From: Anaerolineae bacterium
GTDB taxonomy: Bacteria; Chloroflexota; Anaerolineae; Anaerolineales; E44-bin32
Length of the DNA stretch: 64,000 bases
Direction of reading: 5' to 3'
Assembly (NCBI GenBank): GCA_030605795.1
Contig: JAUWHR010000037.1
Span: 22,670-86,669, forward strand
Position numbers and translations under genes: made by a program. Under the pieces are notes generated by a model. That model saw only the letters and a program-made list of their open reading frames with translations. It was not told the DNA's origin and ran no database searches. Numbering within the stretch: position 1 is the stretch's first letter; each line of letters begins with the position of its first letter. Positions 36,795 to 53,781 of this stretch are shown here, one piece after another.

Positions 36795-36867
36795 ATTGCG
36801 CATAGCCTGTATTTTGTTATTGACAAAAGTAAATATAGTATTGTTAGATTAAGTGGCTATGCGAATT
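36795..36867 (-). repeat. 73-bp inverted-terminal-repeat element, copy B (inverted relative to copy A)
   Basis: Termini ATTGCGCATAGCC ... GGCTATGCGAATT; same 73-bp length as copy A; interior aligns to copy A when reverse-complemented. Confidence 0.7.
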
Positions 36868-38218
36868 AATTATTAAACTCATCTAGAAACAGCTCCAGAT
36901 CATTCGAGGAACGATTTGCATAAGCTTGAGAACGCTGTCGCCTATTCCTCTTAGTACCATCATCAAGAGGCGGCATGATACCAAAATTAGCTTTCATCGG
37001 CTGAAATGATTTCGGCTCAGCATGGCTAATATAATGACATAACGAGCCAAGCATCGTAGTCTGGGGAAAAATAATCGGGTCGTATCCATGGGCTAGGCGA
37101 GCCGCACTCCAACCTGCATACAAACCAGTCGCAATGTTACCCAAATACCCTTCTACTCCGGTAATTTGACCAGCAAAAATAATGCTAGTTCGCTTACAAA
37201 ATTGGAGAGTCGGTAAAAGTACCCTTGGTGCATTTATAAATGTATTTCGGTGCATCTGACCATAACGGATGAACTTTACCTCTTCTAAACCAGGTATCAA
37301 GCTGAACACCCGATCTTGTTCATAATACGTAAGATTCGTTTGGAACCCAACTATGTTATAGAGGTTCCCAATAAGATTATCTTGACGCAATTGGACAACT
37401 GCATAAGGCCGCTTTCCACTCCGTGGATCGATCAAACCAACCGGACGCATTGGTCCGTAAGCAAGCGATTTCCGGCCTCGTTCAGCGATAACCTCCACCG
37501 GTAAACAACCCTCGAAATATCCATGTGGACCAGCACGCACACCTGTTTTTACCGCAACCTCAAAATCACGGAGAGGGATCTTTTCTGCCCCTAGTAAAGC
37601 ATCTATAAAAGCCTCATATTCAACTTCATTCATTGGGCAATTGATGTAATCTCCCTCTGCAATTTGACCACGCCCATAGCGTGATGCGCGGAAAGAAACC
37701 GACATATCGATGCTCTCAGTCTCAACAATTGGTGAGAGAGCGTCAAAAAAGTATAAATGCTCTTCGCCGGTTATGCGTGACAGTTCATTTGCAAGCTTGT
37801 CAGAGGTAAGTGGACCGGAGGCGACAATCACAATTCCATCAGGGATACGACTGACTTCCTCACGAATCAATGTTATGTGTGGTTGTGTGTCTATTTGTTC
37901 TGTCACACCTCGGGCAAAGGCTTCTCGGTCCACCGCAAGCGCTCCCCCGGCTGGCACTGCCTCCCTTTCAGCGATACTCAACAACAAAGATTTCAAGCAC
38001 CTAATCTCGGTCATGAGAACCCCTGATGCCCTATCTGGCAACCGAGAACCTAGCGAGTTGGAGCATACCAGTTCCGCCAAATACCCACTTTGATGAGCGC
38101 CGGTCTGTTTCAGGGGACGCATTTCATAAAGCACTACATCTACACCACGCTTGGCAACCTGCCAGGCGGCCTCACTTCCTGCCAATCCCCCACCTATTAC
38201 GATTACTTCTTTGGTCAT
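36866..38218 (-). CDS. trmFO: Methylenetetrahydrofolate--tRNA-(uracil-5-)-methyltransferase TrmFO
   Basis: VIGGGLAGSEAAWQVAKRG, YEMRPLKQTGAHQSGYLAELVCSNSL, GQITGVEGYLGNIATGL. Confidence 0.95.
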   Translation of the reverse strand: MTKEVIVIGGGLAGSEAAWQVAKRGVDVVLYEMRPLKQTGAHQSGYLAELVCSNSLGSRLPDRASGVLMTEIRCLKSLLLSIAEREAVPAGGALAVDREAFARGVTEQIDTQPHITLIREEVSRIPDGIVIVASGPLTSDKLANELSRITGEEHLYFFDALSPIVETESIDMSVSFRASRYGRGQIAEGDYINCPMNEVEYEAFIDALLGAEKIPLRDFEVAVKTGVRAGPHGYFEGCLPVEVIAERGRKSLAYGPMRPVGLIDPRSGKRPYAVVQLRQDNLIGNLYNIVGFQTNLTYYEQDRVFSLIPGLEEVKFIRYGQMHRNTFINAPRVLLPTLQFCKRTSIIFAGQITGVEGYLGNIATGLYAGWSAARLAHGYDPIIFPQTTMLGSLCHYISHAEPKSFQPMKANFGIMPPLDDGTKRNRRQRSQAYANRSSNDLELFLDEFNN

Positions 38219-38242: not shown

Positions 38243-38258
38243 CGGCATATTTCTTGCA
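38243..38258 (+). promoter_or_regulatory. Sigma-54-type (-24/-12) promoter upstream of rpoN
   Basis: CGGCATATTTCTTGCA; the -24 G to -12 C distance is 12 nt. Confidence 0.65.
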
Positions 38259-38311
38259 ACATGATTGCGCACAACTTATACCCATTGTATAATTTTCATC
38301 CGAGGCTACCT

Positions 38312-39721
38312 ATGCTTCAAATACAAAACCAATCACAACGTCCACTTACCACCGCCCACCTGGCACAGACCATGAGCCTTCTCTTGCTCTCGAACATTGA
38401 ATTGCGTGATAAGGTGATGGCGGAGTTGTCAGTTAACCCAGCACTCGAGTTGGTCGAGGAGCGCATCTGTCCTAACTGCCGACGTCGTCTCACAAGTCCC
38501 GGAGCTTGTCCGATCTGCAGTCTTCATCAGACTGATGAAGGTCCGATCGTTTTCCTCTCACCACGCGAATCCTACCGCTCTACCCCTCCAGCGGTGCAAC
38601 AGGACACTCCCCCCGATCAGGAACCGGCAGCACCTGAGGATCTGACGACCTATGTCCTTCAACAGTTGTCGTCAAACCTAAACCCCGATGACCGACGTTT
38701 GGCGATCTACATCCTTTCCAGCCTCGACGAAGATGGCTTTCTCCAGGACCCGCCCGCCTTCATTGCTCGAGCAACACGTTCAACACTCTCACACGTCGAC
38801 CGCATCTTGCAGCTAGTCTCGCATGCTGAGCCTCCTGGACTGGCAACCACCGGGCCTCGTCAGGCGCTTTTAGTTCAACTAGACCTGTTTCCTCAGGATA
38901 GTCCCATACTTCAATTGGCTCGAGGCATACTGGAAACGTTCTTCCGTGAGCTTGGACACCGCGAAATTGAGAAGATCGCAGCAAACTTGGAAGTTAGCTC
39001 CAACCGGGTACGAGAAGCCGCTGCATTCATTCACGATAACCTTAACCCCTATCCCGGGAGAGCCTTCTGGGGGTCAGGCAGACAACCCCAGAAAGGTGAT
39101 CCAAATGTCTACCATTCTCCTGATATTCTCATCTCCCATAATTCATCCGATGTAAGTGGCCCGCTGATGGTAGAAATCTTCGCCCCGGTATCAGGATGGC
39201 TACGGGTTAACCCCATGTTTTCACAGGCGAAGTCCAAGACCAATAACAATCAAACAGATGAGTGGGCCAAGCATATTGAGCGCGCCTCGTTATTCGTCAA
39301 GTGCCTTCAGCAGCGCAACAACACGATGCGCCGCCTCATGCAATCATTAGTGACCCAGCAAAACCAATTCATATTGAATGGTGACCGCCACCTCATACCG
39401 ATAACACGCGCCAAGGTAGCCAAAGAGATCGGCGTCCACGAATCCACCGTCTCGCGTGCTGTTGCTCACAAATCGGTCGCTTTACCAGATGGTCGGATCA
39501 TCCCATTATCCCGATTCTTTGACCGTAGCCTGGCTATACGCGACCGAATCAAAGAGATCATCAAAAACGAGTCTCGCCCCCTCACTGATGACCAAATTGC
39601 CACCCTTTTACGACAGGCAAACGTGTGTATTGCGCGGCGTACTGTCGCCAAATACCGATCCATCGAGGGCATTCTCCCAGCTCGTCTACGTCATCGCAAA
39701 GGTGCCCGTACTATAGAATAG
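38312..39721 (+). CDS. rpoN: RNA polymerase sigma-54 factor with zinc-ribbon-like insert
   Basis: Region I MLQIQNQSQRPLTTAHLAQTMSLLLLSNIELRDKVMAELSVNPALE; HTH AKEIGVHESTVSRAV; RpoN box ARRTVAKYR; CPNC-X9-CPIC after region I. Confidence 0.95.
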   Translation: MLQIQNQSQRPLTTAHLAQTMSLLLLSNIELRDKVMAELSVNPALELVEERICPNCRRRLTSPGACPICSLHQTDEGPIVFLSPRESYRSTPPAVQQDTPPDQEPAAPEDLTTYVLQQLSSNLNPDDRRLAIYILSSLDEDGFLQDPPAFIARATRSTLSHVDRILQLVSHAEPPGLATTGPRQALLVQLDLFPQDSPILQLARGILETFFRELGHREIEKIAANLEVSSNRVREAAAFIHDNLNPYPGRAFWGSGRQPQKGDPNVYHSPDILISHNSSDVSGPLMVEIFAPVSGWLRVNPMFSQAKSKTNNNQTDEWAKHIERASLFVKCLQQRNNTMRRLMQSLVTQQNQFILNGDRHLIPITRAKVAKEIGVHESTVSRAVAHKSVALPDGRIIPLSRFFDRSLAIRDRIKEIIKNESRPLTDDQIATLLRQANVCIARRTVAKYRSIEGILPARLRHRKGARTIE

Positions 39722-39730
39722 GTCTGTACT

Positions 39731-41740
39731 TTGCCAATCGACTCTTCAACCCTTACCTCCATCGCTCGTTTCTTCAGACCTGACCCATATCGTGACATCT
39801 TCCGTGTTCTAGCTGATTCACTCGATGATGCAGTTCTCGTCATTTCGAGTGATGCATCTCAGATCTTAACCTGTAACCATGCATTCCTTCTTCTCTCTGG
39901 TTATGCACGCGCTGAAATTGAGAAGCTTACTTTCGCTGATCTACTAACCGAGGAAGAAGAAGGAAAACAAGCCTTGAGTCAACTCCTTCAGTGCTCTAAG
40001 ACCCCGGATTGCATAATAGAAGAAGTACCCATCCGAACACGAACTAGAGAGATTATCCCAATCGATCTCCACGTCCGACCAGTAGGACTTGTCTCTTCTG
40101 CATTGCTCCTCATTGGTCGTCCTGTTAGTGCTCGAATCCAGGTAGAGGACCAACGTCGCGCGCAGCAAGACCGTCTCGACACCTTAGCCCAAATCTCGAC
40201 CCTAATCCTCGACGAAATGGTTGCTGCCCTCCCCACTGCCCTCGACCTCGCTAAACGGCTGCTTTGCGCCTCATCGATTGGTCTCTATCGAGTGTCTGCA
40301 ACGACAACAGATTACATCCTGGACGGCTCATTACCCCCCGAATTTCCCCAAACACTCCCCACCTCTGATTTGATCTCTTTTCATCAAACAAACTTGTGGT
40401 CACTTGGACAACGCCCTGAACTTACGCTGCATAAGTCTGCCCGCGCCGCTGGTTTTGGCGCGCTTCAGACTTTTCTCATAGGTGACCCTACAGCTTGGGC
40501 AGGTCTTCTAGTCGTCGGCTGGCAGAAACAGGTTGCCACCCCGGATTATTCCAAGTCACTTATCCCGGTAATTGCTAATCTTTGTCATGTAGCTATCACA
40601 CTCAGCTTACAACGAGCTTCGGTTGCAGAAGCCGAGAAATCTCTTGAGCAACTTCGAGCCGAAGTAAACGACCAATTCGCAGCCGTACCTGATATACTCC
40701 TCTCGCTTGACGGCGACCTTAATGTAATCCAGGCCAACCCAGCCATATCCAGAATGCTTGGCTACCAGCCAGAAGAGGTAGTTGGCTTACCAATACAGGA
40801 TGTGCTTGTTAGCCCTGAGGATGTTCGTCCAATCTTGCTCGACGCGTTAGACCATAAGCGGGTGGCAGAGCTGATGCGTGTCGTTTTACATCGCCGTGAT
40901 GGGACCCCTCTCCCCGTACACCTGCTCGCTACACCCTTATCAGATCAGGCTCGATCTCGTTTGCTAGTCATCTTGAAGGATCAATCCGCGCAACAGAAGA
41001 TTGAAGATCAAACGGAAACACTTACTCAACGTGCATTACTAGGTGAGGTCACAGCTACATTCGCTCATGAAGTCCGCAACCCGATCAATAACATCAGTAC
41101 CGGGGTCCAATTGGTCGCGTCTCGCCTAGGTAAGGACCACCCGCTCCATTCATCTCTCGAGCGGGTGCACAAGGAATGCAACCGTCTGGACCAACTTATG
41201 AGCGATGTCCTAGTCTTCGCCCGACCCCTCAAACTCAAAATAGAGCCCCTCAACCTAACTGAATTTTTGGAACTAATCCTCTCCCGCTGGACTCCCCATC
41301 TCAAACAAGTAGGCATTCGCTGTCATAAATCTTATAATCCCGACATCCCCATGGCACTAGCTGATGAACGTACATTGGAGCGGGTTATCGTTAATCTAAT
41401 CACTAACTCAATACAAGCCATGCCCGAGGGTGGAACGCTTTCTATCGCACTCGATTCGACTCAAACTGCCCAAGGTGAAATGGTGGAGCTAAAAATCATT
41501 GATACTGGTCCCGGTATTTCGCCCGATGTAAAGGATCGAATCTTTGATCCGTTTTTTACAACCAAGAAAGACGGTACAGGACTAGGGCTAGCCATCAGCC
41601 GGCGCATTCTAACCGCTCATAAAGGCACTATCCAGTATGAAAGTTTCACCGACGCCGGCACAGTATTTACCATTTGCCTCCCGTCGGTAACCCAATCCTC
41701 GGAGGAAGCAAACCATGAGCGCGACTGTCCTGATCGTTGA
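39731..41740 (+). CDS. PAS-domain sensor histidine kinase (NtrB-like, no obvious TM)
   Basis: PAS segments; HisKA FAHEVRNPINNI; HATPase NLITNSIQAMPEGG, DTGPGISP, GTGLGLAISRRI. Confidence 0.92.
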   Translation: MPIDSSTLTSIARFFRPDPYRDIFRVLADSLDDAVLVISSDASQILTCNHAFLLLSGYARAEIEKLTFADLLTEEEEGKQALSQLLQCSKTPDCIIEEVPIRTRTREIIPIDLHVRPVGLVSSALLLIGRPVSARIQVEDQRRAQQDRLDTLAQISTLILDEMVAALPTALDLAKRLLCASSIGLYRVSATTTDYILDGSLPPEFPQTLPTSDLISFHQTNLWSLGQRPELTLHKSARAAGFGALQTFLIGDPTAWAGLLVVGWQKQVATPDYSKSLIPVIANLCHVAITLSLQRASVAEAEKSLEQLRAEVNDQFAAVPDILLSLDGDLNVIQANPAISRMLGYQPEEVVGLPIQDVLVSPEDVRPILLDALDHKRVAELMRVVLHRRDGTPLPVHLLATPLSDQARSRLLVILKDQSAQQKIEDQTETLTQRALLGEVTATFAHEVRNPINNISTGVQLVASRLGKDHPLHSSLERVHKECNRLDQLMSDVLVFARPLKLKIEPLNLTEFLELILSRWTPHLKQVGIRCHKSYNPDIPMALADERTLERVIVNLITNSIQAMPEGGTLSIALDSTQTAQGEMVELKIIDTGPGISPDVKDRIFDPFFTTKKDGTGLGLAISRRILTAHKGTIQYESFTDAGTVFTICLPSVTQSSEEANHERDCPDR

Positions 41741-42890
41741 CGACGAAGAGACCGCTCGCAGTTTCATCAGTGAAGCTTTGTGTGATGCCGGCTACGAAGC
41801 GGTAGAGGCTGGGGATTTAGCCGAGGCTAATAAGTTTGTCGATACCGGCGCGGCGGATATCGTACTGTTAGATGTTATGCTACCTGACGGTTCGGGACTT
41901 TCGTTGTTGGACCGCCTTTCGATGGAGAACCCAAGCCCGCCTGTAATCCTTATCACCGCATACGGTGAGGTCGATACTGCGGTTGAGGCGATGAAGAAGG
42001 GCGCCCAGGACTTCCTACAAAAACCACTGGATCTAGATCGCCTGATACAGGCAGTTGAACGGGCGGATGAAATAGTCTCGCTTAGGCGGGAATTAACCTT
42101 GTTGCGCCAATCCTCTGGTGACCAGACGGAAATGGTCGTCGGAGAAACACCGGCCATGCAACGAATCCTTGAGGAAGCTCAACGGGCGGCGGCAGCCTCA
42201 GTGTCGGTCCTGATCACCGGCGAGACCGGCACAGGCAAGGAGGTCTTGGCGCGCGCTATACGCACTATGGGAACGCGGTCTGACAAACCCTTCATCCCCA
42301 TTAATTGCCCTGCCCTTCCAGAAACGATGATCGAGTCCGAATTGTTTGGACATGAAGCCGGCGCCTTCACCGGCGCTCAGAAGAAAAAGCCTGGTTTGAT
42401 CGAAATTGCTGACGGAGGGATCCTATTCCTCGACGAAATTTCCTCCACTAAGACCGATATGCAAGCTAAGCTATTACGCGTCCTTGATGAACATCGTTTC
42501 CGTCGTGTTGGTGGGGTAAAAGAAATTGATGTCGACATCCAAATTCTGGCTGCGTCCAATCGGGACTTGCAAGCGATGATGGAAGAAGGAACTTTCCGGG
42601 AAGATCTCTTTTATCGGCTCAAAGTAGTTGATCTCCATTTACCTCCCCTGCGCGATCGAATCGTCGACATCCCCGCACTGACCGGCACCTTCATCCGCCA
42701 AATTAATATGCGAACTGGAAACATTATTCAAGGGATCACACCACGCGCGATCAAAGCTCTGAAAGCACATGATTGGCCCGGGAACATTCGTGAACTACGA
42801 CATGTCATTGAACGAGCCATGCTTTTCTGCGATGATGAGGAAATCGATATCGCCCATCTCTCGCCAGATATTCAGGCTCTCGCTTCATAA
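41715..42890 (+). CDS. Sigma-54-dependent response regulator (REC-AAA+), lacking a C-terminal Fis-type HTH
   Basis: REC VLIVDDEETARSFI; AAA+ GETGTGKEVLARAI, GAFTGA, GGILFLDEIS; ends 391 aa at DIAHLSPDIQALAS. Confidence 0.93.
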   Translation: MSATVLIVDDEETARSFISEALCDAGYEAVEAGDLAEANKFVDTGAADIVLLDVMLPDGSGLSLLDRLSMENPSPPVILITAYGEVDTAVEAMKKGAQDFLQKPLDLDRLIQAVERADEIVSLRRELTLLRQSSGDQTEMVVGETPAMQRILEEAQRAAAASVSVLITGETGTGKEVLARAIRTMGTRSDKPFIPINCPALPETMIESELFGHEAGAFTGAQKKKPGLIEIADGGILFLDEISSTKTDMQAKLLRVLDEHRFRRVGGVKEIDVDIQILAASNRDLQAMMEEGTFREDLFYRLKVVDLHLPPLRDRIVDIPALTGTFIRQINMRTGNIIQGITPRAIKALKAHDWPGNIRELRHVIERAMLFCDDEEIDIAHLSPDIQALAS

Positions 42891-43048: not shown

Positions 43049-43064
43049 TGGCATGTTCCTTGCA
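43049..43064 (+). promoter_or_regulatory. Sigma-54-type (-24/-12) promoter
   Basis: TGGCATGTTCCTTGCA, 41 bp upstream of the ATG at 43105; matches TGGCAYG-N4-TTGCA. Confidence 0.8.
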
Positions 43065-43104: not shown

Positions 43105-43440
43105 ATGATCCCCCTGTCGATGAATGATCTGCAAATTTTCATTGCCACCGCTGTTTTCGTTTTGGGATGTATGTGCATCATATTGGGTGCGCTGGTCCTG
43201 GTAAGCCGGGGCTATTCACGCGAAGTACGCGCGATCGCCGTCCACACAGCAAAGCTCGGTCAGAAAGGTGTCGCCTCAGAAGTTGCTGGACTAGTGAATA
43301 GCGCATCGGAATTGGTGGCCTCCCTCAACCAACTGGTTCGAACGGCAAACGGGATTGGTATGTTCCTAATCTCGCTTGGGTTGGGAATGCTTGTGGCCGC
43401 TTATTGGATCATCCAGCAAATTCAATGGCCCGTGAGCTAA
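43105..43440 (+). CDS. Small membrane protein, two predicted TM segments
   Basis: 111 aa; hydrophobic IFIATAVFVLGCMCIILGALVLV and GMFLISLGLGMLVAAYWII; first gene after a sigma-54 promoter. Confidence 0.75.
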   Translation: MIPLSMNDLQIFIATAVFVLGCMCIILGALVLVSRGYSREVRAIAVHTAKLGQKGVASEVAGLVNSASELVASLNQLVRTANGIGMFLISLGLGMLVAAYWIIQQIQWPVS

Positions 43441-46400: not shown

Positions 46401-48611
46401 CTTTGTCCTGAGGATGGAGTTATACAAACGAAGCTGGCTAAAGCTTATCTGGCAAACGGGGAAACAGAACGAGGCCTAAACCACTATTCTTCAGCACTTG
46501 AACTAATTACGGATGATGCCGACCTCACTCTCGAAGCGGGTATAGCCGTTCTGAGACACGGATCACCGCTGGAAGCGCTTGAATTACTGCAAAGAGCAGC
46601 TCGCTTGGCGCCAAACAAGACTGATCCGCTCATCGTCTTAGGAGAATGCCTCCTGAACCTTGATCAGCCCAGCGAAGCACGAGATGTCTTGAAACAGGCT
46701 ATTCAATGCGACAAACCCCCACAACAGGCATATGCGCTGCTTGCGCTCGCTGCGCTGGGTATGGACGATTTCTCTTCTGCTAAGGCTACGCTAAATTCCG
46801 CTAAAGCTATTACTCCCCAATCTCGAGAGGATGCTGTCTGGCTCTCAAGAGCAGCCTTACGGATGGGATTCTGGCAGCAGGCTGTCAAATCACTTGAAGA
46901 ATGGCTTGCATTTGAAGATGACATTTCGACAGTCCTCGAGCTAACCCAACTCAGGTTACGCCTCCTGGATGCTCACTGGATCTACGCCGTTGCCGCGAAT
47001 GCTCATAGACATGCTCCTGGTCCTGGCTTTACAACTGATCAAGCTCGCCAGACCATCCAGACACTGATCGAAACCTGTCGCCAGAAAGGTGCACCAAAGA
47101 CTGCACTTGATGCGCTTACACTCTGGTCGTCAATATCTGAAGGCAATTTTGATGATGAAGCCCTTCAAGCGCTGAAGACGACTAACCCAAAGGATGCTTC
47201 ATCGGAAATTACCCAGTCACTCGCCATTGTATTCCTACGCGAAAGTCACCCAGAAGACGCCGAGAAGACACTCAGGTCCTACGACGAGGCCCTTAATCCA
47301 GACGCCTGGGGTGCAATTCTTCTTGGTTTGGCCCACGCAGCCAAAGGGCAGCATACACAAGCACGCCACGCTTTCCAAATGGCCGCTCGCAACCCTGCCA
47401 TACGACCACTTACCTCATACCTTATCGCTCGCTCCTGGTGGGTAGAGGACCAAGCGAAGAAGGCTGCCGACAGCTTCAACGCTGCAATTGCGGCTTGGCC
47501 AAACGAGCCGGCCTGGCATTTCCAGCTTGCCTCCCTTTATCTAGAAGAGGGTGAACTTGACGCCGCCCTTCCTCATCTATATCAATCTGTTGAGTTGGAA
47601 CCAGAGGAATCCGATCACCTCCTCGCCTATGCTCGGGCACTACGTGATACGGGTCAACTATCGGAAGCTGAGAAGATCTACTCTCGTATTCTTGAGGCAA
47701 AGCCTGCTATTGGTCAGATATGGAAAGAAGCCGGGCAGATCGCCATGGCAGCAGGACATGCCACCCAAGCAGATACATGGTTCGAGCGCGCTTGCACTCT
47801 ATTGCCATCCGATGTCCATTGTCTTATTGGCTCCGCTCGCTCAGCGATGGCGCTCGGACAGGATCGACAGGCGTTAGAGCGCGCACAGGCTGCGCTGCGC
47901 CTAGCTCCAGATGACTACCAAGTGCTGCTCGGCATGGGTGAGATCTTCGCTGCTCAAAATAAATTTGAAAAGGCTCTTCATGCCTATGACCAGGCGTTAG
48001 AGCGCACAAGCAACCCACTTAATGTTCAGCTAGCACGGTGCAAGCTGCTGGTCAAGATCGGAAACGCCAACCAGGCTAGTGCAGTCTTACACAATGTTTT
48101 GGAGGCGAATCCTGATGACCAGCGCGCCTGGGCTGCGCTCGCTGAAGCCTGCGAAGCGGCCAATCAACTGGATTCAGCACTCGATGCTGCCGCCCAGGCG
48201 GTTCGTCTCTCCCCACGCAATCCATCCTATCGTCTACATCTAGGACGCCTTTGTCGCAAGAGCGGTCAACTTGATCGCGCGTTGGATGAACTTGCTCATG
48301 CCCAATCATCCGGGCTATATGACGCTAATTTTGCCTTGGAGCTGGGCCATATTTATGAAGCCCGTCGCGAATCAAAACAAGCCCTTGAAGCCTACAAACA
48401 AGCCATCGCCATTGATCCCAATTGTGACCAGGCGCACTTTCTTGCCGGTTTGATTCTGAAGCGACAAAAGGAATATCAACAAGCAGCCAACATGATTGAG
48501 CGAGCTGTAGAACTCAACCCTAGAGATCCCGATGTGTTGCATCAATTAGCTGCAGTGCGCGCCCTGGAATTGATTCACGGTGGAACTTTGAAGTCGGCGG
48601 TGTCCTTATGA
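43425..48611 (+). CDS. Giant tetratricopeptide-repeat protein (~1728 aa)
   Basis: Dozens of TPR-like units (e.g. PSSTPARFALAHSLQADGRPEAALPHWQTLV, DANFALELGHIYEARRESKQALEAYKQAIAIDP). Start set to an internal ATG overlapping the previous stop. Confidence 0.9.
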   Translation: MARELNSVEAQMLSDAEVLAALSEVLSPGELSQAMERILRVPEAWNQLHDPSLLEQVTRQNAASSTVPSHMAFMVIGIPDLAEHDRPLTEAHEARLDQLWKDALEGLVDDLDFESVALLTIGLLREYSKENGPQSIARLALEEPDVWRSSLSCAWPHLTQPEQLLSNLIREGRSSGVSLAAHILLANISPIEAAETLFISSPHTSNKILLALQEIGECTLAKSFAKTTASILVDPNVELTSDSAMNLLASTTRNLLSDDLEKAHQNLNKAWETASHTIGLVADKVAEIALLEGDPVVEVEARQQALRSHSSSVRRAWLGFALLQLGHPQDALASLQHDPETLEELIAVGLILSKLGETTQATQSLNQAVLQLSKAEGCDDRLLKYLLDGLKSIGEIEQALLVARFRVHCKPTSIESRIDLSEMLNLAGDSQAAAKQAHLALVLDPSSTPARFALAHSLQADGRPEAALPHWQTLVTTEPESLANLANCALDAGQMDLARETAQCLLQEDQNSFQGQIVLGKALVALGEHESARGYLDKAIQIAPQYPEPWIALAEFQMTSGDDQAAGATLSAGTQAAPNHGSLYIALSRWLRNQGRLSDALKAAKKATNLDQNQAQWLVEYGDLLRNLGHHDRALLALRKALSRQPANWEARLALALTYEQRGEVASAARLLKALPPETSPETHFLVGRILAKSGKQGEHSLLNDVVTHLEHARSGGCQDPSIDYWLGLAHEHAGQADEAFHAYQHYLQNDPEENLDLRREAVLGFARSALATDLVSLSLSTLEEERKRYPTSTEILVLLSEAYLKADLPAQALRTVRQAADLDPTSEEILRMLSRAATETGEITEAIEAVKRLVDIRQDDAIAWLELAELSQKAGKSITSRNALAQSLRLERRQPNVLRRTAEVLLDMNNGSAAQRMLRQASILQPDDPATYQKLAILSEQLGDLETAQQAWRHCSELEPENHNPLDHAAQALWGLNRRSAAIGLWQHAAALCPEDGVIQTKLAKAYLANGETERGLNHYSSALELITDDADLTLEAGIAVLRHGSPLEALELLQRAARLAPNKTDPLIVLGECLLNLDQPSEARDVLKQAIQCDKPPQQAYALLALAALGMDDFSSAKATLNSAKAITPQSREDAVWLSRAALRMGFWQQAVKSLEEWLAFEDDISTVLELTQLRLRLLDAHWIYAVAANAHRHAPGPGFTTDQARQTIQTLIETCRQKGAPKTALDALTLWSSISEGNFDDEALQALKTTNPKDASSEITQSLAIVFLRESHPEDAEKTLRSYDEALNPDAWGAILLGLAHAAKGQHTQARHAFQMAARNPAIRPLTSYLIARSWWVEDQAKKAADSFNAAIAAWPNEPAWHFQLASLYLEEGELDAALPHLYQSVELEPEESDHLLAYARALRDTGQLSEAEKIYSRILEAKPAIGQIWKEAGQIAMAAGHATQADTWFERACTLLPSDVHCLIGSARSAMALGQDRQALERAQAALRLAPDDYQVLLGMGEIFAAQNKFEKALHAYDQALERTSNPLNVQLARCKLLVKIGNANQASAVLHNVLEANPDDQRAWAALAEACEAANQLDSALDAAAQAVRLSPRNPSYRLHLGRLCRKSGQLDRALDELAHAQSSGLYDANFALELGHIYEARRESKQALEAYKQAIAIDPNCDQAHFLAGLILKRQKEYQQAANMIERAVELNPRDPDVLHQLAAVRALELIHGGTLKSAVSL

Positions 48612-51307
48612 TTAATCGCGATAACATCATCAAATTGATCCAAGCAGCTAAGCTGGCAAGCCGGCACGATTTCGCTAGCGCCGCAGCCGCAGATTGGCTT
48701 GCTTTGTGGCCGGGCGATCTTGAAGTTCAATTCCTTAATGCTCAAACGGAAATGGATCAACTTCACCACCAACCCGCAATACAACGTTTGATTAATGTCG
48801 TAACAGTAGATCCCGAGTATGTGGAAGCATACGACCTCCTCTCTGATGCTCTCCATGCTGCTGGTGAGCCAACCCGAGCTCGAATCTATGCAGCATGTGC
48901 TGAGGTATTTCGAGGTGCGGAGCTAAATAAGGCACAGTACCCGTCTTGGGCGATCCATCTCAACCAAGCGATATCTGCTCTCGCCTCAGGTGATCCTCAT
49001 ACAGCCACTTCTGATTCCCAAAGAGCGCTAACTGCAGATCCCGATCTGCCTCTGATTACACTTGTGGCAATGAAAGCACAATTGGCTGCCGGTGATCGTC
49101 CTGCAGCATTAATGCTCGCTCGAACAGGTCACAACCGCTGGCCAGAGTGTCTGGCTTTCCGTCTACTCTTAGCTGATGAACTCCTCTCACATGGTGAAGT
49201 TCGACGTGGTGTTGAGTATTTTCATCAAGCAGCTAGTGATGATCCTACCGGTCGGGTAACAGATCGCATTCTAGGGCCGTCTAATCCCTATCGGAGCCTG
49301 TGGCCAACTCAGTTGGAAACCCGCCTCAGCCGTCCGGTGCCTGCTATAGTGGCCGCCGTTCTTGGCAACAATCGTTTGGCAAGTGGAAGTTTGGGCCAAG
49401 TTGATCTAAAGACATCTTGTGGTAGTGAGCAGTCTAAAGTAAGTCAGGGTGTTGCAGGTAGAAAAAAGGCGGTAAAGGAACCTGCAACCTCATGCAAGAA
49501 GCCTGATGCAACCAACCTTGACATCGGAGTACAACCATCAGATGGGGACGATTCCCTACCTGTGCCTGAGCCGTGGGAATCCTTTCAGGGTCCTGATCCA
49601 GGGAATGATGTGTTACCTGAACACGATCAGGATGCGGAGATACTACTCGAGATCGAGCAGGATTTTAACTGCATAGCGGCGCGGGTAAATGCTCGCCAAC
49701 GTCATCGCGATGAAGATCGCCGGGTTCCGGCCTATATCATCCTATCAAGCCATACCCGGCTGATACAGTCCTTTGGTGATGACTGCTTCCAACGCATAGA
49801 CCAAGCTATAATGTCCCTGGTGGAATCAGTTCGCCGCCGATCAGGATGGACAGCTTATCATCTGTACATCGACGATTCCAATAGCTCCGAGCCATTTGGC
49901 TTATCACCCGCTGATCCTGCCAATGCATGGCAGATCAAACTGCGTTTGGCAGATTTAGACCAAGCCCTCGGTCGTCGCGGCGAAATGATTGGTGCACTTC
50001 TCATCGTCGGAGGGGATCGCATCGTGCCGTTCCATATGCTCCCCAACCCAACTGATGATGATGATGAAGTTATCCCTTCGGACAACCCCTACGCTACTAC
50101 TGATGAAAACTACTTCGCGCCTGAGTGGCCTGTCGGTCGTTTACCGTCAGCCAATGATCCTGACCTTCTCGTTCGCCTACTTCGATCATATGCTGACGAA
50201 CATCGCGTTGCTGTGAAAGCCCTCAACCCATTTTTACGCTTCCGTATATGGCTTGCGACTAAGCTTGGTAGACTTTTCCGCAACAGCTCTCAAACGCTTG
50301 GTTATAGCGCTAGTATTTGGCGAAAGGCTTCGCTGGCAGTCTATAAAGTCATCGGCGATCCGGTCTCCATGCTTATTTCACCCCCAACTGAAGCCGACCG
50401 TCTTCCCCCTATTGCCATGCGTCCGGCTAAGTTTTCCTATTTCAACTTGCATGGTCTTGAAGATGCCCCTGAATGGTTTGGTCAAAGAGACCCTGTGCGC
50501 GACGAAGGTGCAGGGCCAGAATACCCTATTGCTATGCGCCCACAGGATATTGTGAACAACAACAATGCACCAAAGATCATCTTCACCGAAGCTTGTTATG
50601 GGGCTAATATCCTCGGTAAGACCAGCCAATCCGCCCTCTGCCTTAAGTTCCTGGACGCTGGAAGCCGAGCTGTTATTGGCTCGACGAAAATCTCTTATGG
50701 CTCAATGACCACCCCTTTGATCGCCGCTGACTTGCTCGGCCGTCTGTTTTGGGAGTATCTCAACCAGCCGCTTCCGGTGGGAGAGGCCTTACGTCGGGCG
50801 AAACTCAAGCTGGCAACCGACATGCACCGCCGCCAGGGCTTTCTCGATGGCGAAGACCAAAAAACGCTTATTTCATTTGTATTGTATGGAGACCCGCTTC
50901 ATTGCCCAACCTATGTCACGGTCCGGCCTGGCCATAAGATGATCATTCGGCGAATGACCCGCCCAGAGCATTTAAAGACCGTCTGCGCACTTGGAGGACC
51001 GTGTATTGATTCTGAGAACCTCGATCAAGCTTACCTCAAGCGGGTAAAAGCCATCGTTTCTCAGTACCTCCCAGGCATGGCCGATGCCCAATGCCGGATC
51101 CATCCCCAACATCATGGATGTAATGGTAGTGATAATCTCTGCCCCACACATCAGCTTGGGATCAAAAGTCTTGAAGCCGAAGGTAGAGAGAACCTAGTGG
51201 TTACTTTCTCAAAACATGTTCGCGATGGGGCTCTACAGCATCCCCACTTCGCCCGTTTAACCCTGGATCCCACCGGCAAGGTCCTTAAACTAGCTGTTTC
51301 TCGGTAG
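48608..51307 (+). CDS. TPR protein fused to a C25 (gingipain)-like clan CD cysteine peptidase domain
   Basis: N-terminal TPR; then ALLIVGGDRIVPFHMLPNPTDDDDEVIPSDNPYATTDENYFAPEWPVGRLP, candidate His615 in FNLHGLED and Cys663 in IIFTEACYGANI. Confidence 0.75.
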   Translation: MINRDNIIKLIQAAKLASRHDFASAAAADWLALWPGDLEVQFLNAQTEMDQLHHQPAIQRLINVVTVDPEYVEAYDLLSDALHAAGEPTRARIYAACAEVFRGAELNKAQYPSWAIHLNQAISALASGDPHTATSDSQRALTADPDLPLITLVAMKAQLAAGDRPAALMLARTGHNRWPECLAFRLLLADELLSHGEVRRGVEYFHQAASDDPTGRVTDRILGPSNPYRSLWPTQLETRLSRPVPAIVAAVLGNNRLASGSLGQVDLKTSCGSEQSKVSQGVAGRKKAVKEPATSCKKPDATNLDIGVQPSDGDDSLPVPEPWESFQGPDPGNDVLPEHDQDAEILLEIEQDFNCIAARVNARQRHRDEDRRVPAYIILSSHTRLIQSFGDDCFQRIDQAIMSLVESVRRRSGWTAYHLYIDDSNSSEPFGLSPADPANAWQIKLRLADLDQALGRRGEMIGALLIVGGDRIVPFHMLPNPTDDDDEVIPSDNPYATTDENYFAPEWPVGRLPSANDPDLLVRLLRSYADEHRVAVKALNPFLRFRIWLATKLGRLFRNSSQTLGYSASIWRKASLAVYKVIGDPVSMLISPPTEADRLPPIAMRPAKFSYFNLHGLEDAPEWFGQRDPVRDEGAGPEYPIAMRPQDIVNNNNAPKIIFTEACYGANILGKTSQSALCLKFLDAGSRAVIGSTKISYGSMTTPLIAADLLGRLFWEYLNQPLPVGEALRRAKLKLATDMHRRQGFLDGEDQKTLISFVLYGDPLHCPTYVTVRPGHKMIIRRMTRPEHLKTVCALGGPCIDSENLDQAYLKRVKAIVSQYLPGMADAQCRIHPQHHGCNGSDNLCPTHQLGIKSLEAEGRENLVVTFSKHVRDGALQHPHFARLTLDPTGKVLKLAVSR

Positions 51308-51315
51308 AAATAATT

Positions 51316-51331
51316 TGGCACCAATCTTGCA
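51316..51331 (+). promoter_or_regulatory. Sigma-54-type (-24/-12) promoter
   Basis: TGGCACCAATCTTGCA, 31 bp before the ATG at 51363; correct 12-nt GG-GC register. Confidence 0.8.
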
Positions 51332-51362: not shown

Positions 51363-52670
51363 ATGTCTTCACCGAACAGTCGCCTCGGTTTCTATTATTC
51401 TCCAGATGACCAGCACTACACTCAGCTAGATCTTGACACCTGGTTGCCTGTTTTAGGGGGGTTAGGAGCCCGTTGGCTGACCTTACAGGCATCGCCTGAA
51501 CGAGCCATCCCAGAATCCTTTATCCGAGGCTTGCTAGACTCACAAATCGAACCCATCATTCACATCCCCTGCACCGTGGGGAGTGTGTCAGCCACGAGCT
51601 TAACCCCCCTGCTAAGCAGCTATGCCCGTTGGGGGGTTCACTACGTGGTCGTCCATGATCGACCCAATATTAGATGTAACTGGGAGGCATCTGATTGGGG
51701 GAAAACAGGTTTAATTGAACGCTTTATTGACTATGTATTACCGATCTTGGAGACTCAACAATCCATCGGGCTTCAGCCTGTCCTTCCCCCACTCGAACCT
51801 GGAGGGGACTATTGGGATACTGCCTTCCTTGAATCCGTTCTCGAATCCTTAATACGGCGAGGTAAACAAGATCTTCTCCAAGAGCTGACACTGGCTATTT
51901 ACGTCTGGACATATGGTAAACCCATTGATTGGGGTGCTGGCGGGTTCGAACGTTGGTCAGAAGCACGTCCATATCATACACCACCTGGTTGTCAGGATCA
52001 GTTGGGATTCCATATTTATGAATGGTACTCCGAAATTGTAGAGAAAACATTGCATAGTTCGCTGCCGATGCTGATCATTGCTGGTGGAGAATTGCCCTCC
52101 CTCGAGGCTGTTAACCTCGGGCCTGACCCTCACACTGAGCAGAATCTCACCATCGCCCGCGCCCTTACCAGCGATGAAGTTCCAAATATCGTCTTAAATT
52201 TCGCCTTTTATCACCTCACCTCGACACCTGACCAATCGGATCACCATTCTGCTTGGTACCCATCCGTCGATCAACCATTACCTGTTGCCGCGGCTATCAA
52301 TCAATTAGCAAATTTAACGATTAAAAAGCCACCAGTGTCGGTCGGAAAACCTCTCCAACATTATGTCCTGCTGCCCCCGCAGTCCAGCCCTGATTACAAC
52401 CAAAACTGGAGTGCGATTGGTCAGTTCGTCCTCGCAGTTCAACCAGTGATTGGTTTTTCACCTCAGGAAGCACGCCTGGCAAAACGAGTCACACTTTTTG
52501 GAGATGAGCAGGCCATTCCCAAGATAGTAGAAGATGAACTTCGTGACGCTGGATGTTATGTAAAACGCTACGGTGCAGTGGGTCGCGAATTCTTCACCAA
52601 CAAAAGCCCCACTGTAGCCACTGCATCCCCTGCTTCATACTTCTCAACCCAGGGAAAATCTAATGAATGA
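51363..52670 (+). CDS. TIM-barrel glycosidase-like protein of unknown function
   Basis: 435 aa; LGFYYSPDDQHYTQLDLDTWLPVLGGLGARWLTLQASPERAIPESFIRGLLDSQIEPIIHI suggests a (beta/alpha)8 glycosidase-like fold; assignment tentative. Confidence 0.6.
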   Translation: MSSPNSRLGFYYSPDDQHYTQLDLDTWLPVLGGLGARWLTLQASPERAIPESFIRGLLDSQIEPIIHIPCTVGSVSATSLTPLLSSYARWGVHYVVVHDRPNIRCNWEASDWGKTGLIERFIDYVLPILETQQSIGLQPVLPPLEPGGDYWDTAFLESVLESLIRRGKQDLLQELTLAIYVWTYGKPIDWGAGGFERWSEARPYHTPPGCQDQLGFHIYEWYSEIVEKTLHSSLPMLIIAGGELPSLEAVNLGPDPHTEQNLTIARALTSDEVPNIVLNFAFYHLTSTPDQSDHHSAWYPSVDQPLPVAAAINQLANLTIKKPPVSVGKPLQHYVLLPPQSSPDYNQNWSAIGQFVLAVQPVIGFSPQEARLAKRVTLFGDEQAIPKIVEDELRDAGCYVKRYGAVGREFFTNKSPTVATASPASYFSTQGKSNE

Positions 52671-53781
52671 AATCGCCCAAGTAATCGCCCGGTCTCGCAC
52701 CACTGCTGTCGACGAACTCCAAAAAATAGGTCGGGTTAGGATTAAAGTGCTTGGCCTGGGTGGCGGGGGTTCGAACGCAGTCAATCGTATGATTGAACTT
52801 GGCTTAGCTGATGTCGACTTTATCGCTGCTAATACCGATAAACAGGCCCTGGCATCGAGCCTGGCGCCTTGCCAGATACAATTGGGACCGCGAGTAACGC
52901 GTGGACTCGGCGCCGGTGGCGACCCTAGAGTCGGTGCTTCTGCTGCCATGGAAAGCAGTCGCGAATTGGCTGCCGCCCTTCGCCATGCGGACATGGTATT
53001 TATTACAGCTGGTATGGGTGGTGGAACGGGAACCGGAGCTGCGCCAGTCGCGGCTGAGATCGCTCGTGAAATAGGCGCCATCGTGATCGCCATTGTCACC
53101 ATGCCTTTCGCTTTCGAAATGAATCGCCGTGCGCAGAATGCCCTCGATGGTGTGAAACGACTCCAACCTCACACGCATACCCTGATTACCGTCCCTAATG
53201 ACCGACTGCTCCAAGTTGTTCCCCACGATCTCAGTCTTGAGATTGCTTTCCGTCTGGCGGACGATGTGCTGCGCCAGGGCGTGCAAGGGATCGCTGAATT
53301 AATCACCCGACCTGGTCTGATCAACGTCGATTTCGCTCACATTCGACAACTGATGCTGAACGGAGGCGGCGCATTCATGTCGATCGGCCTCGGTGAAGGC
53401 CCCGAAAAGGCTAAGGCAGCCATTCATCAGGCGCTTAATCATCCTCTACTGGAGATCAATAGCCTAGAACAAGCGTCAGGCATTCTGGTTCACTTCACCG
53501 GTGGTGCAGACCTCACACTGCACGAAGTTGGGGAGGCAGTAACTGAATTGCGCAAATCCCTTGCGCCTGATACAGACCTGATCCTGGGAGCGACCTCGGA
53601 GGAGATTATGACCGGGCGCGCTCAAGTGATCTTGATTGTAACCGGCATTGGCGGCAGACCAATTGGTATGCTGAACACGATGGAAACCGATACCCGATTA
53701 CTGAGTGTTGAGCAAGTATCTTCAGTAGCGGACGATTTGGATCTACCCACCTTTCTACGCAGACGAGCTGCAATCGGATAG
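52663..53781 (+). CDS. ftsZ: FtsZ homologue with atypical T7 loop
   Basis: VLGLGGGGSNAVNRMIE, GGGTGTGAAPVAAEIAR, C-terminal DDLDLPTFLRRR; T7 loop reads NVDFAHIRQLM. Confidence 0.92.
   Translation: MNEIAQVIARSRTTAVDELQKIGRVRIKVLGLGGGGSNAVNRMIELGLADVDFIAANTDKQALASSLAPCQIQLGPRVTRGLGAGGDPRVGASAAMESSRELAAALRHADMVFITAGMGGGTGTGAAPVAAEIAREIGAIVIAIVTMPFAFEMNRRAQNALDGVKRLQPHTHTLITVPNDRLLQVVPHDLSLEIAFRLADDVLRQGVQGIAELITRPGLINVDFAHIRQLMLNGGGAFMSIGLGEGPEKAKAAIHQALNHPLLEINSLEQASGILVHFTGGADLTLHEVGEAVTELRKSLAPDTDLILGATSEEIMTGRAQVILIVTGIGGRPIGMLNTMETDTRLLSVEQVSSVADDLDLPTFLRRRAAIG

Follow-up and report, generated by a model that had tools for sequence, protein, structure and literature searches.

In an uncultured Anaerolineae bacterium the sigma-54 gene, rpoN, is preceded by the -24/-12 element CGGCATATTTCTTGCA (38243-38258, + strand), which is almost certainly a genuine sigma-54 promoter. 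An equivalent site stands before rpoN in all 54 evaluable genomes of the order, where ∼0.014 would be expected by chance. We consider it likely that this site and an overlapping sigma-70-type promoter together place sigma-54 under signal-gated feedback by its own product. Coordinates refer to the window, the whole 64-kb stretch of DNA analysed, which is part of a draft genome (G000; 81% complete, 98 contigs).

CGGCATATTTCTTGCA lies 54 bp before the rpoN ATG (38312), with GG at 38244-38245, GC at 38256-38257, and N10 spacing, in the same register as two further sites at 43049 and 51316. Sequence, position, distance, and register had been described in an earlier note on this DNA, and all were confirmed. 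The element conforms to TGGCAY-N5-TTGCA, with C replacing T as the first base in the source genome, and YGGCAYN5TTGCA was used as the strict pattern. The strict pattern has exactly three matches in the window (38243, 43049, and 51316); all of them lie on the + strand, 40-70 bp upstream of the start of a gene. The bare GG-N10-GC signature means nothing taken alone, as it has 557 matches in the window. A consensus search allowing three mismatches performed at chance (78 matches versus 92 in shuffled sequence) and was rejected. At the rate of strict sites in order members without detected rpoN, ∼1.4e-4 strict matches are expected in the 94-bp gap between rpoN and the divergent GIDA-family gene labelled trmFO (36866-38218, - strand), whose promoter lies in the same gap. 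Genome-wide, the strict pattern has 12 matches in the source genome versus 2 for the reversed pattern, and most other rpoN genomes show a similar enrichment. These counts were dropped as evidence because order members without detected rpoN show an equal excess; use of the sites is thus supported by position and conservation, not by abundance.

Conservation was assessed among 61 genomes of the order, 56 of which have a detected rpoN. Two were left out, one with a contig end inside the site (G032) and one with only an rpoN fragment (G021). Exact GG-N10-GC is present in 53 of the 54 remaining sites, and the last has GT at -12. The distance from site to start codon ranges from ∼50 to 233 bp, and the orientation is always toward rpoN. 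Among order members outside the family, the information content reaches or approaches 2 bits at GGCA and TTG.A and is ∼0-1 bit in the internal N5 and the flanks. The site is also retained at ∼10 loci where trmFO was not detected next door. In family f9, tandem strict sites occur before rpoN, two at locus L230 and three at L232. Of the rpoN genes examined beyond the order, only some one in five is preceded by a convincing site, and the feature is therefore not claimed for the whole phylum.

The two other strict sites in the window are placed before operons unrelated to rpoN. TGGCATGTTCCTTGCA (43049-43064, + strand) is the predicted sigma-54 promoter of a 111-aa protein of unknown family (ORF 43105; 43105-43440, + strand) and the TPR protein gene that follows it in the operon. 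TGGCACCAATCTTGCA (51316-51331, + strand) is predicted to serve a 435-aa protein without a Pfam or NCBIfam match (ORF 51363; 51363-52670, + strand) and the overlapping ftsZ (52663-53781, + strand; TIGR00065 above cut-off). Orthologues of the two leading proteins were gathered at the protein level before the DNA upstream of their genes was scanned, which avoids choosing genes by the motif. Sites in the register of CGGCATATTTCTTGCA were found before 30/30 orthologues of ORF 43105 and 27/30 of ORF 51363. Both proteins are absent from four genomes without detected rpoN (G030, G036, G043, and G049). Sites recurring in several relatives precede an ftsL-like/ftsI pair in the mraZ-mraW cluster, a transglycosylase, a PD40 protein, and a LysM protein; these are weaker evidence because they were found through the motif. 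The conserved regulon, as predicted, includes ftsZ operons and, in fewer genomes, ftsI and peptidoglycan genes. At locus L086 the site (1501-1516) lies inside the mraZ-mraW-ftsL-ftsI cluster, directly before the ftsL-like gene, and the arrangement is repeated at L171, L191, L198, and L212. We also observed, at 48608-51307 of the window, an 899-aa protein with a TPR-like N-terminus and a caspase-like Peptidase_C25 domain; it adjoins a 1735-aa TPR protein in the putatively sigma-54-driven cluster leading to ftsZ.

Downstream of CGGCATATTTCTTGCA, a Shine-Dalgarno-like GAGG (38302-38305, + strand) is followed by rpoN itself (38312-39721, + strand). The 469-aa product has the AID, CBD, and DBD domains and the RpoN box ARRTVAKYR, although the AID is weak and exceeds the cut-off only when the N-terminal fragment is used. 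Where the part of rpoN encoding this box could be read, the box is intact at almost every locus. An AlphaFold model (mean pLDDT 57) was too weak for interpretation. A PAS-HisKA-HATPase histidine kinase (39731-41740, + strand) starts 9 bp after rpoN, and its gene overlaps by 26 bp that of an NtrC-family activator (41715-42890, + strand), consisting of a receiver, a sigma-54 AAA+ domain with GAFTGA, and a lid. Judged by this spacing, the three genes form a tight operon. In 49 of the 56 rpoN genomes the strand of rpoN carries a strong activator match 2.36-2.9 kb downstream, and the other seven rpoN genes lie at contig ends. The presence of the GAFTGA activator, the intact RpoN box, and the conservation of the site, whose GG/GC the earlier note had expected to be lost in relatives if its reading were wrong, together give strong support to its proposal that rpoN has its own sigma-54 promoter.

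The activator appears to lack the means of recognizing specific DNA. A C-terminal Fis-type DNA-binding domain was looked for in the window activator and is absent: the NtrC profile match stops at position 381 of 463, and NtrC and AtoC profiles match only up to the DNA-binding part. Readable linked activators end 172-183 residues past GAFTGA, right after the AAA+ lid, as opposed to an unlinked activator with a Fis-like tail, which runs 245 residues past GAFTGA. The linked activator at L069 is longer, with a tail resembling a membrane segment. Outside the order, activator reading frames are mostly 450-530 aa. Exactly one strong sigma-54 activator is present in 48 of 58 genomes; a few genomes have a second one, and the activator of the operon thus need not be the sole input everywhere.

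A second promoter lies between the sigma-54 site and rpoN. It consists of a -35-like hexamer, TTGCGC (38265-38270, + strand), exactly 17 bp before a -10 hexamer, TATAAT (38288-38293, + strand), which ends 18 bp before the ATG. The -35 is weak, matching the consensus at 3 of 6 positions, and for that reason a sigma-70 promoter scan listed no promoter here. Of 26 family loci, 25 have TATAAT or, as in most relatives, TATACT, usually 14-22 bp upstream of the ATG; in most of them TTGC is retained at a distance of 17 bp upstream of this -10. The locus thus has, as far as can be read from its sequence, the basal promoter plus sigma-54 promoter of an autoactivated rpoN operon. From the GG/GC register, the sigma-54 start is predicted at ∼38269, inside the TTGCGC hexamer. 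Given this overlap and the known footprints, we infer that the two polymerases could hardly bind together. The sigma-54 site and the -10 are 8 bp apart in genus g3, both at rpoN (L023, L024, and L025) and at the PD40 gene (L216), compared with a distance of 27-29 bp for most other members of the family. The shortening in g3 is parallel at the two promoters. Helical phasing of this distance (8/18/29 bp) was considered and dropped (Rayleigh p ∼0.14).

We propose that the sigma-70-type promoter would supply a basal amount of sigma-54, kinase, and activator. On a signal, the kinase would phosphorylate the activator, which, acting from solution, would engage sigma-54 polymerase at all of its promoters, including 38243-38258, from which the rpoN-kinase-activator operon would be transcribed. 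An activator of this kind, lacking a DNA-binding domain as CtcC of Chlamydia does, should be able to work without an enhancer site. Sigma-54 and activator would then both be raised, and the loop is likely to be positive under activation. In the absence of a signal, sigma-54 polymerase waiting at -24/-12 would encroach on the sigma-70 -35 and keep the operon repressed, a negative loop, and the operon probably occludes itself in this way when the activator is unphosphorylated. The earlier note had inferred positive autoregulation; the sigma-70 promoter, the lone operon-encoded activator lacking a DNA-binding domain, and the division and wall regulon are additions to what it described. That sign is retained here for the active state of the activator; for the inactive state, the overlapping sigma-70 promoter makes negative autoregulation by occlusion equally plausible. 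Bistability of the loop is possible, and its gain could be superlinear, since sigma-54 and a presumably hexameric activator would both come from it.

The principal alternative is that the site is an operator only, where sigma-54 polymerase binds, hardly fires, and blocks the sigma-70 promoter, so that autoregulation is purely negative. The predicted start within the -35 hexamer and the -10 merely 8 bp past the site in g3 are in keeping with this, as is the negative autoregulation reported for rpoN1 of R. etli and rpoN of R. leguminosarum. We nevertheless regard it as unlikely: the rpoN sites match the consensus as well as those of ORF 43105 and ORF 51363, where no sigma-70 promoter was seen, and the activator comes from the same operon and should work without an enhancer site. 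It is much less probable still that the motif is constrained by the divergent trmFO promoter or by an unrelated DNA-binding protein. Such a constraint is suggested by the gap of just 94 bp common to trmFO and rpoN, but the site stays in place at loci with no trmFO detected alongside, always points toward rpoN, and recurs as the same motif ahead of unrelated operons that accompany rpoN across genomes. A chance match beside a sigma-70 promoter that alone matters, as might be supposed from the frequency of loose GG-N10-GC and the chance-level mismatch search, is in effect refuted by the conservation of CGGCATATTTCTTGCA.

Sigma-54-driven rpoN has already been reported in other phyla (PMC12316311, PMC6925177). 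According to PMC6925177, which cites Cullen 1994, the nifU2-rpoN superoperon of Rhodobacter capsulatus has an autoactivated rpoN; as proposed here, a weak constitutive promoter is joined by an amplifying sigma-54- and activator-dependent one, located in that case upstream of nifU2 and requiring NifA. Here, by contrast, both promoters lie within ∼70 bp of rpoN, whose operon also encodes the activator, a protein with no DNA-binding domain. A 2025 study predicted sigma-54 sites before rpoN in Bacilli, Clostridia, Planctomycetia, Proteobacteria, and others, inferring rpoN autoregulation, as we do, from the gene's own promoter type (PMC12316311); its text makes no mention of Chloroflexota. To these predictions the present analysis adds near-fixed conservation in one order and an operon with kinase and activator. 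CtcC of Chlamydia is likewise an NtrC-type activator with receiver and AAA+ domains and no DNA-binding domain (PMC7482065). A word search of that paper's text gave no mention of rpoN autoregulation; the activator described here is encoded directly behind rpoN. In rhizobia the rpoN level is also set by its own product (PMC3916325, PMC3538637); the feedback there is negative, whereas its sign here probably depends on the state of the activator. No relevant paper on the clade was found in the open literature searched. What is new is the combination in one clade of near-fixed conservation, an overlapping dual promoter, a single operon-encoded activator without a DNA-binding domain, and ftsZ in the regulon.

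In 2011, sigma-54 was proposed to control the cell exterior, peptidoglycan included, and in this clade sigma-54 is linked to ftsZ. We tentatively suggest, as a reading that may well prove too strong, that sigma-54 in the order acts as one closed, self-amplifying switch, in which a lone kinase-activator pair made by the operon, without DNA-binding specificity, fires rpoN together with all other sigma-54 promoters, among them the promoters of ftsZ, ftsI-type, and peptidoglycan genes. If true, this would tie cell division and wall growth to a single autocatalytic signal. The system is minimal as visible by sequence, with one sigma factor, mostly one activator, one operon, and a small regulon. The sign of rpoN autoregulation, whether positive, negative, or signal-dependent, thereby becomes directly testable.

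RpoN of the window has a further feature. Directly after Region I, residues 53-69 (38468-38518) form a CxxC-x9-CxxC motif that replaces the variable Region II. A zinc-knuckle sigma-54 would be unusual, and no report of one was found in a limited literature look-up touching on the subject. The CxxC pair is present in all loci of the order and in most of ∼50 other Chloroflexota loci checked, and is missing from the RpoN of a Thermodesulfobacteriota relative (L100) and from that of a further bacterium (L101).
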